5,497 nt of DNA from an uncultured Collinsella sp. (GTDB lineage Bacteria; Actinomycetota; Coriobacteriia; Coriobacteriales; Coriobacteriaceae): contig USMH01000082.1 of assembly GCA_900555745.1 (NCBI GenBank), positions 1 to 5,497 of the forward strand, in the 5' to 3' direction. Within the stretch, counting starts at the first letter, position 1. Each line of letters starts with the position of its first letter. Position numbers and translations under genes: made by a program. This document shows, in pieces, positions 1-4,668 of the stretch. The notes under the pieces were generated by a model that saw only the letters and a list, made by a program, of their open reading frames with translations, was not told the DNA's origin and searched no databases.

Positions 1-1870
1 CGCGGACCGCGGCCTCAACGTCCTCTGCAAGCTGCTTGAGCGCAGCCTGCAGCGCACCCTCGCCGGCATCGCGGCGGTAGACGGCACGGAAACGGCGGGT
101 TTTAAAGCCCACGCGGTCGATGGCGCAAATGCGGTCGAACTCCTCCTCGCTCAGCAGCGGACGCTCCAGGCGCACCAGCTGACAGGCCGTACGGGAGTCC
201 TCGAGCAGGTTGCCGTGGTTGCCCAGGTAGAGCGTGGTCGAGGTAACCATATGCTCGCGAAGAGCGTCGATGGGCGGATTCGTGACCTGAGCGAACAGCT
301 GATAGAAGTAGTCGAAGAACGAGCGCGTCTTCTTGGACAGGCAGGCCAGCGGCGCATCGATACCCATCGAGGCGAGCGGCGCCTTGCCTTGCTGGGCCAT
401 GGGGCGCACGACCTCGTCAACATCATCCCAGTGATACCCGAGCTTGGCCATGCGCACGGCGGCGGGCACCTCGGTATCCTCGGCGGGCGTGGGCGCGACG
501 GGCTTGTCGAGCGCGTCGACGGTCAGCGTCTCCTCGGCGATCCAGTCGCGATAGGGCTTTTCCTTGGCGTAACGGGCGCGCAGCTCGTCGTTGTAGATGA
601 CGCGGCCGCGGGCAAAATCGACCTCGAGCATCTGGCCCGGTCCCAGACAGCCGCTCGTCAGGATGTTCTCGGGGCTCACCTCGATGGTGCCCACCTCACT
701 CGCCAGCATAAAGCGGCCGTCGCGCGTCACGTAGTAGCGGGCGGGGCGCAGGCCGTTGCGGTCGAGGGCGGCACCCAGCGTGCGACCGTCGGTAAAGGCG
801 ATGGCGGCCGGGCCGTCCCAGGGCTCCATGAGCATTGACTGGTAGGCGTCGTAGGCGCGGCGCTCCTCGCTCAGACTGTCGTTGTGGTCCCACGGCTCGG
901 GCAGCAGCATGGATGCGGCACGCGTGAGCGGACGGCCGTTCATGACCAAGAACTCGAGCACATTGTCCAGAATCGCGGAATCGGAGCCCTCGCGGTTGAT
1001 GATGGGCATCACGCGCTCAAGATCGTGCTGCAGCACGGGGCTATACAGATTGGGCTCGCGGGCGCGAATCCAGTTGACGTTGCCCTTGAGGGTGTTGATC
1101 TCGCCGTTGTGGATGATAAAGCGGTTGGGGTGCGCGCGCTCCCAGCTGGGCGTGGTGTTGGTGGAGTAGCGCGAGTGGACGAGCGCCACGGCCGTCTTGA
1201 CGGCGGCATCGTTGAGATCGATGAAGAAGCGACGCATCTGCGTGGCGACGAGCATGCCCTTGTACACGATAGTACGCGAGCTCATGGAGCACACGTAGAA
1301 GATCTTATCGCGCAGGGCAAACTCGGCGTCGGCCTTCTTTTCGATGGTGCGGCGGCACACGTACAGACGGCGCTCAAAGGCGTCGCCCGCCGGCGTGTCG
1401 TCCGGACGACCCAGGAAGGCCTGCAGGATAGTGGGCATACAGGCGCGGGCCGTCTCGCCCAGGTCGTGCGGGTCGACCGGCACCTCGCGCCAAAAGAGCA
1501 GCGGCACGCCGGCCTCGGCGCAGCCCTCCTCAAACACGCGGCGGGCATCCTCTACGCCCTTGTCGTCCTGCGGGAAGAACAGCATGGCCACGCCATAGTC
1601 GCCCTCTGCCGGCAGGATCTGGCCGCACTTTTGAGCCTCTTTACGGAAAAAGTGGTGCGGAACCTGGAACAGGATGCCAGCACCGTCGCCGGTATTCTTC
1701 TCGAGTCCCGTGCCGCCGCGGTGCTCCAAGTTGACCAGAATGGACAGCGCATCGTCCAGAATCTGGTGATGGCGCTCACCGTTGATATCGGCAAGCGCGC
1801 CGATGCCACATGCATCGTGATCGAATTCGGGGCGATAAAGGCCCTGCTGCTGAGCGGAATCTGCCTGCAT
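1..1870 (-). CDS. gltB: Glutamate synthase large subunit, N-terminal part (partial)
   Basis: Large (alpha) subunit of glutamate synthase, which makes two glutamates from glutamine and 2-oxoglutarate in the cytoplasm. The frame stays open from the ATG at 1868-1870 to the left edge: 623 codons of a protein usually near 1500 residues, so roughly the first 40%. A 20-residue stretch precedes Cys21 (DHDACGIG), the expected N-terminal nucleophile of a class II amidotransferase after propeptide removal. Glutaminase-domain landmarks follow in order: EHRGGTG (His50), TGDGAG (about 60-65), HNGEINT (254-260) and DRNGLRPARYY (370-380). The central domain has begun by about 480, with the conserved QVTNPPID stretch near 530 and LGNHGNLLED after 545. 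The FMN/Fe-S synthase domain is outside the window. A strong ribosome site (GGGGAGG, 1877-1883) sits 6 nt before the ATG and fixes the start. The gene is divergent from gpmA across a 539-bp gap. No frameshift was seen. Confidence 0.96.
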   Translation of the reverse strand, partial: MQADSAQQQGLYRPEFDHDACGIGALADINGERHHQILDDALSILVNLEHRGGTGLEKNTGDGAGILFQVPHHFFRKEAQKCGQILPAEGDYGVAMLFFPQDDKGVEDARRVFEEGCAEAGVPLLFWREVPVDPHDLGETARACMPTILQAFLGRPDDTPAGDAFERRLYVCRRTIEKKADAEFALRDKIFYVCSMSSRTIVYKGMLVATQMRRFFIDLNDAAVKTAVALVHSRYSTNTTPSWERAHPNRFIIHNGEINTLKGNVNWIRAREPNLYSPVLQHDLERVMPIINREGSDSAILDNVLEFLVMNGRPLTRAASMLLPEPWDHNDSLSEERRAYDAYQSMLMEPWDGPAAIAFTDGRTLGAALDRNGLRPARYYVTRDGRFMLASEVGTIEVSPENILTSGCLGPGQMLEVDFARGRVIYNDELRARYAKEKPYRDWIAEETLTVDALDKPVAPTPAEDTEVPAAVRMAKLGYHWDDVDEVVRPMAQQGKAPLASMGIDAPLACLSKKTRSFFDYFYQLFAQVTNPPIDALREHMVTSTTLYLGNHGNLLEDSRTACQLVRLERPLLSEEEFDRICAIDRVGFKTRRFRAVYRRDAGEGALQAALKQLAEDVEAAVR

Positions 1871-1974: not shown

Positions 1975-2068
1975 CGCCCTGCGAGTGGGTGCCGCCGAGC
2001 TCAAGGACGACAACAAGGGCCCCAAGTTCGGTCTTCAAGCTCACCGCTTCAAACATCTCAATCTGTAA
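1973..2068 (+). pseudogene. Coding-like remnant ending inside the repeat array
   Basis: From about 1973 the plus strand reads as a short coding-like stretch with G/C-ending codons typical of the neighbouring genes. It contains GAAELKDDNKGPKFG and ends in ...FKHLNL followed by TAA at 2066-2068. The stop lies within the first repeat arm, so the last five residues are encoded by the repeat itself. There is no ribosome site; the only plausible start is GTG at 1985, and upstream of about 1970 the frame no longer looks coding (TGA at 1904-1906). It could be the surviving tail of a displaced gene, a small unrecognised peptide gene, or chance. The protein family is not recognised. Confidence 0.25.
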
Positions 2069-2272
2069 CAGGAAGACCCAATTACGACGACTAACTGTTA
2101 CAGATTGAGATGTTTTTGAGAGACGGATCCGAATGTCTCAATCTGTAACACGAAGGGCCGGTTTTTGCAGCTAACTGTTACAGATCGAGATTTTCCATAG
2201 GACCATTTCTTCCTGTCTCGATCTGTAACACCTAGGTCCAATTTCCATCCCTAGTTGTTACAGATCAAGACA
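2051..2272. repeat. Array of six 15-bp repeats in alternating orientation, 40-bp period
   Basis: Six copies of TCTCAATCTGTAACA or its reverse complement start at 2056, 2096, 2136, 2176, 2216 and 2256, with orientations + - + - + -. Every start is exactly 40 bp apart, so all five gaps are exactly 25 bp. The copies pair into three palindromic units repeated every 80 bp. Unit 1 (2051-2115) has perfect 20-bp arms around 25 nt. Unit 2 (core 2136-2190) has 15-bp arms with one mismatch. Unit 3 (2214-2272) has 17-bp arms with one mismatch. The three 25-nt interiors share AG at positions 4-5, CC at 8-9, TT at 12-13 and CTA at 21-23, so the whole unit is homologous and not only the arms. No seventh site exists at the next 40-bp step on either side. 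The array lies between the divergent gltB and gpmA promoters, ending about 55 bp before the gpmA -35. It may be a dispersed palindromic element (REP- or MITE-like) in tandem, or a multi-site protein-binding array. Function unknown. Confidence 0.93.
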
Positions 2273-2409: not shown

Positions 2410-3183
2410 ATGGCATGCCAGACAGACCAACAGACGATGCAACTTGTCCTTATCCGTCACGGAGAATCCGAGTGGAACAAACTCAACCTGTTCACCGGCT
2501 GGACCGATGTTGAGCTCACCGACACGGGCCGCGAAGAAGCCGCCGCAGGCGGTCGAGCCCTCAAAGAAGCCGGTTTCGACTTTGACGTCTGCTACACTTC
2601 GCGCCTCAAGCGCGCGATCCACACCCTCAACATCGTGCTCGGCCAGATGGATCGCGAGTGGCTGCCCGTCATCAAATCCTGGAAGCTCAACGAGCGCCAC
2701 TACGGCGCGCTGCAGGGTCTCAACAAGGCCGATGCCGCGGCGGAGCACGGCGACGAGCAGGTGCTCATCTGGCGCCGCTCCTTCGACGTCTGCCCGCCGG
2801 CGCTCGAGCCGGGCGACGAGCGCGACCCCCACACCCAGGAGCAATACCGCGACGTCGCGCCCGATCAACTGCCCTATACCGAGTGCCTCAAGGATACGAT
2901 CGCCCGCGCCTGGCCTTATTTCGAAGACGAGATTCGCCCCCAAATGCTCACCGGCAAGCGCGTACTCATCGCCGCACACGGCAACTCACTGCGCTCTCTC
3001 GTCATGAAGTTCGAGCACCTCACGCCCGAGGAAATCCTCAAGGTCAACATCCCCACCGGCGTGCCGCTCGTTTACACCTTCGACACCGATTTCAACGTCC
3101 TCGACAAGCGCTACATCGGCGACCCGGCAACCATCGCCGCCAAGATCGATGCCGTTGCCAATCAGGGCAAAGCGCACAAGTAG
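2410..3183 (+). CDS. gpmA: 2,3-bisphosphoglycerate-dependent phosphoglycerate mutase
   Basis: Interconverts 3-phosphoglycerate and 2-phosphoglycerate in lower glycolysis and gluconeogenesis, in the cytosol, through a phosphohistidine enzyme primed by 2,3-bisphosphoglycerate. The 257-residue protein is close to the usual 230-250 of the family. It shows the histidine phosphatase signature LIRHGESEWN with catalytic His17, FTGWTDVELT (28-37), SRLKRAIHT (64-72), NERHYGALQG (94-103), the insertion PGDERDP (134-140) typical of the cofactor-dependent enzyme, and the second active-site histidine in AAHGNSLR (His190). The N-terminus carries about 9 extra residues before the usual MQLVLIRHG; the start at 2410 is chosen because AAGGAGG sits 5 nt upstream. 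A sigma-70-like promoter precedes it. The metal-transporter gene follows after 75 bp on the same strand with no evident terminator between, so the two may share a transcript. Confidence 0.96.
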   Translation: MACQTDQQTMQLVLIRHGESEWNKLNLFTGWTDVELTDTGREEAAAGGRALKEAGFDFDVCYTSRLKRAIHTLNIVLGQMDREWLPVIKSWKLNERHYGALQGLNKADAAAEHGDEQVLIWRRSFDVCPPALEPGDERDPHTQEQYRDVAPDQLPYTECLKDTIARAWPYFEDEIRPQMLTGKRVLIAAHGNSLRSLVMKFEHLTPEEILKVNIPTGVPLVYTFDTDFNVLDKRYIGDPATIAAKIDAVANQGKAHK

Positions 3184-4544: not shown

Positions 4545-4574
4545 GTCTCAATCTGTAACACGTAAGGCCGTTTT
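4545..4574 (+). repeat. Solitary left half of the palindromic repeat unit
   Basis: TCTCAATCTGTAACA at 4546-4560 is identical to the left arms at 2056 and 2136. The similarity continues into the interior: CG, A, GGCCG and TTT match the second array unit (2136-2190), about 27 of 32 bases from 4545. The right arm expected at 4586-4600 is absent, so this is a decayed or half-deleted copy. It lies 30 bp after the mntH stop, not near a promoter, which points to a dispersed repeat family in this genome more than to a local operator. Confidence 0.8.
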
Positions 4575-4593
4575 AAACCGTCAGATAAATCAA

Positions 4594-4628
4594 AAGGGTC
4601 CCAGCCGGAATATCCAGCCGGGACCCTT
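4594..4628 (-). terminator. Hairpin terminator for the rubredoxin gene, perhaps bidirectional
   Basis: AAGGGTCCC (4594-4602) pairs perfectly over 9 bp with GGGACCCTT (4620-4628) around a 17-nt loop that contains a small inner dyad. Read on the minus strand, the stem is followed by TTTTGATTTAT, a fair T-tract, about 40 nt past the rubredoxin stop. On the plus strand only two Ts follow, so termination of mntH transcripts here would be weaker. Because the genes converge at this point, it probably serves both sides. Confidence 0.7.
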
Positions 4629-4668
4629 GGACAGAGCTCTGTATGGCTAATCGCCGTGTGTCTACGAG

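Follow-up and report, generated by a model that had tools for sequence, protein, structure and literature searches.

The 5,497-bp contig USMH01000082.1 of an uncultured Collinsella sp. (assembly GCA_900555745.1), analysed here over its whole length and referred to as the window, carries an array of short alternating repeats in the 539 bp that separate gltB from gpmA. The left neighbour of the array, gltB (positions 2–1870, minus strand), encodes the N-terminal part of the glutamate synthase large subunit, and the right neighbour, gpmA (2410–3183, plus strand), encodes phosphoglycerate mutase. The array consists of six 15-bp sites of the pattern TCTYRATCTGTAACA, which start at 2056(+), 2096(−), 2136(+), 2176(−), 2216(+), and 2256(−). 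The start-to-start step was 40 bp in all five neighbouring pairs, so every gap is 25 bp long. These observations agree with an earlier, sequence-only reading of this DNA, which had described six strictly alternating 15-bp sites with 25-bp gaps (2051–2272) and arms at most one base from consensus: five of the six arms match TCTCRATCTGTAACA exactly, and the sixth is one base off. At up to two mismatches, the window gave seven matches, each exact to the pattern; 200 dinucleotide shuffles gave a mean of 0.02 matches, and none reached seven. The seventh match, a lone site at 4546–4560(+) downstream of mntH, was missing from the earlier site list.

The six sites form three units, each consisting of a plus-oriented arm, an inner stretch of 25 bp, and a minus-oriented arm. 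Unit 1 spans 2056–2110 (arms 2056–2070 and 2096–2110, inner stretch 2071–2095), unit 2 spans 2136–2190 (arms 2136–2150 and 2176–2190, inner stretch 2151–2175), and unit 3 spans 2216–2270 (arms 2216–2230 and 2256–2270, inner stretch 2231–2255). Linkers of 25 bp separate units 1 and 2 (2111–2135) and units 2 and 3 (2191–2215).

We surveyed the steps between neighbouring sites without assuming any spacing. The survey comprised 331 pairs at 122 loci, which are distinct by sequence yet include orthologous arrays from related genomes, and 322 of them were exact lattice steps of 40 or 41 bp: plus-to-minus at 40 bp (197 pairs), minus-to-plus at 40 bp (87 pairs), and minus-to-plus at 41 bp (38 pairs). 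Six of the nine deviant pairs, with steps of 8 and 32 bp, were palindromic shadows, including all three plus-to-minus pairs at 8 bp; the others were single cases of plus-to-minus at 41 bp, minus-to-plus at 39 bp, and plus-to-plus at 80 bp. Units accordingly follow a 15-25-15 scheme and are joined by linkers of 25 or 26 bp. In the arrays of 29 sequences, the first site was always plus and the last always minus, with 2 to 10 sites per array, except for three lone sites. The sequence-only reading had named random spacing in relatives, or a recent tandem duplication, as observations that would reduce the array to an ordinary repeat cluster; we found instead that related genomes keep the same grid and that the gaps have diverged.

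The arms are nearly invariant. Six of their 15 positions never varied across 184 arms. The inner 25 bp differ among loci, apart from positions 3 and 23, which are A or T in 92 of 92 inner stretches, and a central A/T tract. The A/T profile of the inner stretch was best described by a period of 10.0 bp (p = 0.017), and the linkers had no such rhythm (p = 0.69). At orthologous units, diversity was higher in the inner stretch than in the arms (0.084 vs 0.043; 0.161 vs 0.032), and one linker was conserved like the arms (0.04). We also asked whether the two arms of a unit change together. No covariation was seen at the variable arm positions, which vary independently (position 5, Fisher p = 0.14), and pairing between the arms over a 21-pair stem in 37 units was 87.9%, compared with 88.3% in shuffles, 381 of 500 of which scored as high. 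Since the arms do not covary, these alignments favour recognition of each arm as DNA over an RNA hairpin.

The arrays are a genome-wide family. Inverted pairs with a 25- or 26-bp gap occurred as 13 to 34 exact units per genome in 22 of the 43 genomes of the genus group; of the remaining genomes, one (G040) had a single exact unit and 20 had none. Order-wide, among 395 genomes, the unit pattern was found in 23, namely the 22 array-rich genomes and G040. At up to one mismatch, we counted 92 sites in G001 and 90 in G002. The array-rich genomes seem to belong to a single group of relatives. A profile (R1) found one or two units each in G021, G033, G040, and G041. The units of G021 and G041 lie upstream of clpB (L228, L229) in a region that looks transferred, because it is 98–99% identical between the two genomes, although these otherwise gave no unit.

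In G008 there are at least 19 arrays: 15 were found in a first count and four later, two of which are single units. A contiguous 400 kb of this genome held 36 matches at up to two mismatches, one of them a palindromic shadow, and these made up seven arrays and one lone site. Six of the seven arrays were clear of called open reading frames (ORFs) and one overlapped an ORF call by 44%; the lone site lies inside an ORF call that is itself likely spurious. Five of the arrays lay between codirectional genes, one between divergent genes, and one between convergent genes, against 115, 32, and 33 background gaps, respectively; an earlier tally of 37 arrays had given 14, 12, and 10, with one open. The contexts in G008 thus follow the background of gap orientations, so that a promoter or terminator element was rejected, and the divergent setting mentioned by the sequence-only reading, true at gltB and gpmA, is not general. 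A single regulon was also rejected, as the genes next to arrays are diverse and mostly metabolic. Viral contigs held no unit, and no phage record matched the array. Only one "plasmid" record matched, an 899,693-bp record of Collinsella aerofaciens that has 21 places, and we rejected a phage or plasmid origin. In G007, a gene for a GmrSD-type restriction endonuclease (L151, 2760–4622) adjoins an array; it is absent from the compared stretch at the orthologous place in G008.

The sequence-only reading had also advised looking for a co-occurring DNA-binding protein, and this search led to a candidate gene. In G008, four arrays lie within ~15 kb around gltB, and two of them enclose the gene of a 364-residue protein, ~8 kb from the gltB array. 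Arrays stood on both sides of this gene in 17 of the 17 loci that have both flanks; two further loci, truncated by contig ends, had an array on whichever side is present. The gaps between array and gene were 3 to 45 bp in the four loci measured. Orthologs at 85% identity or more were found in 19 of the 22 array-rich genomes and in none of the 21 others. A C. aerofaciens record (NZ_OY725717.1) has the same layout: its bracketed gene carries the annotation "hypothetical protein", and a homologue of the window array, 93.6% identical, lies ~8 kb away. In G008 the neighbours of the bracketed gene are an amidohydrolase gene and a gene for a 235-residue protein without a Pfam match.

The bracketed protein is predicted to combine an AbiEi-like domain with a Vsr-like nuclease domain. 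Modelling points to a Vsr / PD-(D/E)XK fold, with conserved acidic and lysine residues, and the VIA-align rows covered residues 121–342 best. A sequence search of solved structures gave nothing significant, and one phage record matched the protein, weakly, over 25% of its length. In G007 the gene and the sequence between its two arrays are gone; one unit is left, flanked by the outer flanks of both arrays. The gene can therefore drop out as a cassette flanked by its repeats.

A link between repeats and protein would predict that diverged paralogs have repeats of their own. A word of at least 14 bp was common to both 500-bp flanks at 6 of 11 distant paralog loci, compared with 15 of 339 control ORFs (p = 8.5e-6). 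Two of the six bracket words, those of G019 and G033, were searched in all 43 genomes because both recur within their brackets, and the other four were searched in samples. The G019 word was found at 51 sites in its own genome and at one in G018; the 41 others had none. Its 47 grouped sites followed a lattice of their own with 30/31/30-bp steps: plus-to-plus at 30 bp (11), plus-to-minus at 31 bp (10), and minus-to-minus at 30 bp (8), with steps of 61 or 91 bp where a site is missing (4). The G033 word occurred 20 times in its own genome and once in each of G008 and G044; the 40 others had none. The reversed G019 and G033 words gave 0–2 and 0–3 sites per genome.

The word found in G010, with the arm GGGAYGCANYTTCCG, marks a second family of alternating lattices within the clade, with 29/33-bp steps (L309, 10129–10452; L350). 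This lattice brackets a 333-residue paralog in G010 and is dispersed in G008, where the ortholog survey found no paralog of the 333-residue type. In 800 kb of G008 there were 53 loose matches, and 24 of the 26 close pairs stood at 29 or 33 bp; 400 kb of G025 and 392 kb of G045 gave 15 and 7 matches and no close pair. Among plasmid records, only the 899,693-bp C. aerofaciens record matched a paralog of the bracketed protein. As a separate observation, a permease-like gene in G008 (L303, 6075–7013) has a 31-bp word common to its 500-bp flanks and was not recovered by the AbiEi-Vsr profile.

At the gltB place, copy number differs by whole units. All 22 array-rich genomes have one to three units upstream of gltB (three units in 15, two in 3, and one in 4; the locus of G017 is cut short by a contig end), and no unit was found at eight gltB loci of other genomes. 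A single unit stands at this place in G001 and G002, compared with three in the window, so that the number changes by whole 80-bp steps; G001 and the window differ here by exactly 160 bp, and the difference involves a hybrid unit. In a mosaic test of pairs that share one 12-bp half, the neighbouring half differed across an arm in 151 of 426 cases, across an inner centre in 86 of 728, and across a linker centre in 21 of 267. Judged by these breakpoints, recombination seems to occur mostly within the arms. The copy-number differences, the mosaic units, and the loss of the gene in G007 all fit homologous recombination in the arms. The tandemly amplified palindromic element proposed in the sequence-only reading therefore survives in part: units are gained or lost in 80-bp steps and are mosaics, mostly through arms, but they are not near-identical copies.

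Overall, we consider it probable, with some reserve, that the arrays are a genome-wide family of fixed geometry whose arms are likely operators of the bracketed predicted AbiEi-Vsr protein. The candidate family is favoured because of the 17/17 bracketing and the separate repeat families at its paralogs. The protein would bind the 15-bp arms, assembling on them as inverted pairs every 40 bp, and by analogy with AbiEi of Streptococcus agalactiae it may repress its own gene. The dispersed arrays would then offer further binding sites, serving titration, insulation, or local DNA organisation, and on the simplest account the arrays would be lattices, dispersed over the genome, to which the protein binds cooperatively. 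Of the options in the sequence-only reading, the data favour protein loading on a regular lattice of dyads, given the near-invariant arms, the fixed spacing, the 10-bp A/T rhythm of the inner stretch, the independently varying arms, and the existence of a candidate protein; the divergent promoters that it included appear incidental. More tentatively, as a possibility that we would not yet lean on, the AbiEi-Vsr genes may represent a new repeat-protein class: genes lying between copies of the operators that they encode binders for, with a word and lattice private to each paralog (40/40–41, 30/31/30, and 29/33 bp), whose homing-like dispersal has seeded the chromosome with binding arrays.

Several observations weigh against these interpretations; the heaviest are the absence of the gene from some array-rich genomes, the slight decay of arms there, and the apparent kinship of the array-rich genomes. 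G007, G010, and G011 are array-rich and lack the ortholog, and the copy in G028 is interrupted by a stop. The arms in G007 show hardly more decay than those in G008 (28 mismatches in 74 arms vs 22 in 76). Because these genomes seem to form a single related set, the 19/22 vs 0/21 distribution may reflect a single evolutionary event. For the protein itself, no Pfam or NCBIfam model scored above its cut-off, and Foldseek yielded nothing at E ≤ 0.001; for the AbiEi match, E was 0.029 and the root mean square deviation 6.8 Å. The bracketing array showed no sigma-70-like promoter. Among the paralog loci, 5 of 11 had no bracket word of 14 bp, and not every word was dispersed: the G045 word was rare (four sites in 392 kb, including its own bracket), the G025 word was absent from 400 kb of G025, and the G007 word had four loose matches in its own sample, three in G008, and one in G025. 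Finally, the mosaic breakpoints were not concentrated at the unit centre and gave no sign of cutting at the dyad, so cutting there is unsupported. This last point bears directly on an addition that would be compatible with the operator model and that we regard as doubtful, namely that the nuclease drives dispersal of the arrays by homing-like gene conversion after cutting; recombination in the repeated arms alone would give the same mosaics, and arrays persist where the gene is missing.

We weighed three other explanations. The arrays could be selfish repeats spread by a transposase, either a REP-associated tyrosine transposase (RAYT; REP, repetitive extragenic palindromic) or another, with the AbiEi-Vsr gene as a trapped passenger. 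Their layout resembles that of bacterial interspersed mosaic elements (BIMEs; PMC2817692), Y1_Tnp genes are present in 37 of the 43 genomes (85 matches), and RAYT-type REP words lie near arrays in G008 and G007. At glmS (L251–L271), two inverted RAYT-type REPs enclose an array in 4 of 21 genomes, and 16 of the 17 others have one REP, a pattern that fits excision between REPs, with insertion as the alternative. But no arm site at up to three mismatches turned up in 23 stretches surrounding 22 of the 85 Y1_Tnp matches, including both in G008 and all four in G007, and a RAYT/REP origin was rejected. Of three RAYT-type loci searched, two had other repeats and one had no clear repeats. The lack of covariation also argues against selfish repeats of this kind, and a passenger would not be expected to have private repeats around its distant paralogs. 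We therefore judge this explanation unlikely. The RAYT-type REP words AAAGGTGCCTGTCCC stand close to arrays at L133, L142–L146, and the glmS loci, and recombination between REPs may remove entire arrays. Within 100 bp of arrays, REP words occurred in 8 of 32 cases in G008, all eight in the same relative orientation, and in 4 of 29 cases in G007, two of the four in the orientation seen in G008.

The sites might instead be bound by an unrelated nucleoid or regulatory protein, the gene being bracketed by chance of place. The strict, helical-scale geometry and the conservation would suit such a binder, arrays also occur in genomes without the gene, and the diverse, mostly metabolic neighbours could suit a general organiser; however, the 17/17 bracketing and the separate paralog repeats point to the AbiEi-Vsr family, and we consider an unrelated binder distinctly improbable. 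The sequence-only reading had also raised a transcript of three similar hairpins, which might act as a processing or termination signal. As single strands, the three units of the window do fold into long stems (−19.7 to −24.1 kcal/mol). The arms do not covary, and on this ground the hairpin was rejected; moreover, arrays occur between codirectional, divergent, and convergent genes in about background proportions, no Rfam family reached its gathering score in the window, and the inner stretch is fixed in length and variable in sequence. We give this last explanation almost no weight.

Beyond the array, the window carries the Nramp transporter gene mntH (plus strand) and genes for a rubredoxin-like protein and a flavin reductase-like protein (both minus strand). 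Its closest relatives among 80 genome loci were two Collinsella contigs, those of G001 and G002, with GpmA 97% identical; in G007 and G008, mntH instead of gpmA comes next after the gltB array. The lone site at 4546–4560 is likely the remnant of a unit that has lost its right arm: the interval between mntH and the rubredoxin-like gene contains two full units in G001 and G002 and a remnant of the window type in G007 and G008. The same interval in the window holds an inverted repeat, AAGGGTCCC..GGGACCCTT, at 4594–4628, which is likely a terminator, and the Rfam family BjrC68 matched weakly at 4586–4650, under its gathering score. An IS200/IS605 tnpA gene (L281, 10825–11283) lies, in the named C. 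aerofaciens record, within the interval where the window has the lone site.

Dedicated enzymes of dispersed palindromic repeats are already known, namely the RAYT transposases. If the arms are the sites of the bracketed protein, the Collinsella arrays would be a repeat family with its own dedicated protein, and an AbiEi-like/Vsr-like fusion as a second, unrelated partner, each paralog having a lattice word to itself, would mean that this lifestyle has evolved more than once. Common gut bacteria would then offer ready matched pairs of protein and site, with which the effects of arrays on chromosomes and gene expression could be studied. Among the matches listed for Collinsella repeats, REPIN/RAYT, BIME, DUF559, AbiEi, and homing endonucleases in the literature, none gives a description of these arrays.

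The best reading of the layout and lifestyle is that they are BIME- or REPIN-like, without compensatory changes or a link to RAYT. In BIMEs, REPs are regularly spaced and in alternation (PMC2817692), and BIME or REP clusters are likewise intergenic, dispersed, and built of one to five units. The Collinsella arrays differ in that their arms do not covary, the inner and linker sequences have diverged at fixed lengths, none of these repeats was found at the 22 Y1_Tnp genes examined, and the bracketed gene is AbiEi-Vsr-like. REPINs (REP doublets forming hairpins), as described by Bertels and Rainey 2011 (PMC3116915), are doublets 71 or 110 bp apart, linked to RAYTs and with compensatory changes in the hairpin; like the present arrays, they have a conserved word of ~16 bp that forms inverted doublets, separated by a spacer of fixed distance and arranged in ordered tandem clusters, some of which have a dedicated protein gene beside them. 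Unlike REPINs as described there, the Collinsella doublets have a 40-bp step, no covariation, and a protein that is PD-(D/E)XK-like. CRISPR arrays were ruled out, as the Collinsella sites alternate and their inner sequences are common to orthologous places. The predicted Vsr-like domain is comparable to the Vsr-like homing endonuclease I-Bth0305I (3r3p) and would, in Collinsella, be a nuclease fused to an AbiEi-like domain. For the operator itself, the nearest likeness is the AbiE type IV toxin-antitoxin system: AbiEi of S. agalactiae represses its own gene via an 11-bp inverted repeat with a 27-bp gap (PMC3985639), similar in geometry to the 15-bp arms and 25-bp gap found here. In both cases an inverted repeat lies beside the protein's own gene, and an AbiEi-like fold is tentatively predicted for the Collinsella protein. 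Unlike AbiE, no AbiEii toxin gene was seen beside the bracketed gene in G008 or in the annotated C. aerofaciens stretch, the Collinsella protein has an additional predicted Vsr-like nuclease domain, and its repeats stand on both sides of the gene and genome-wide.
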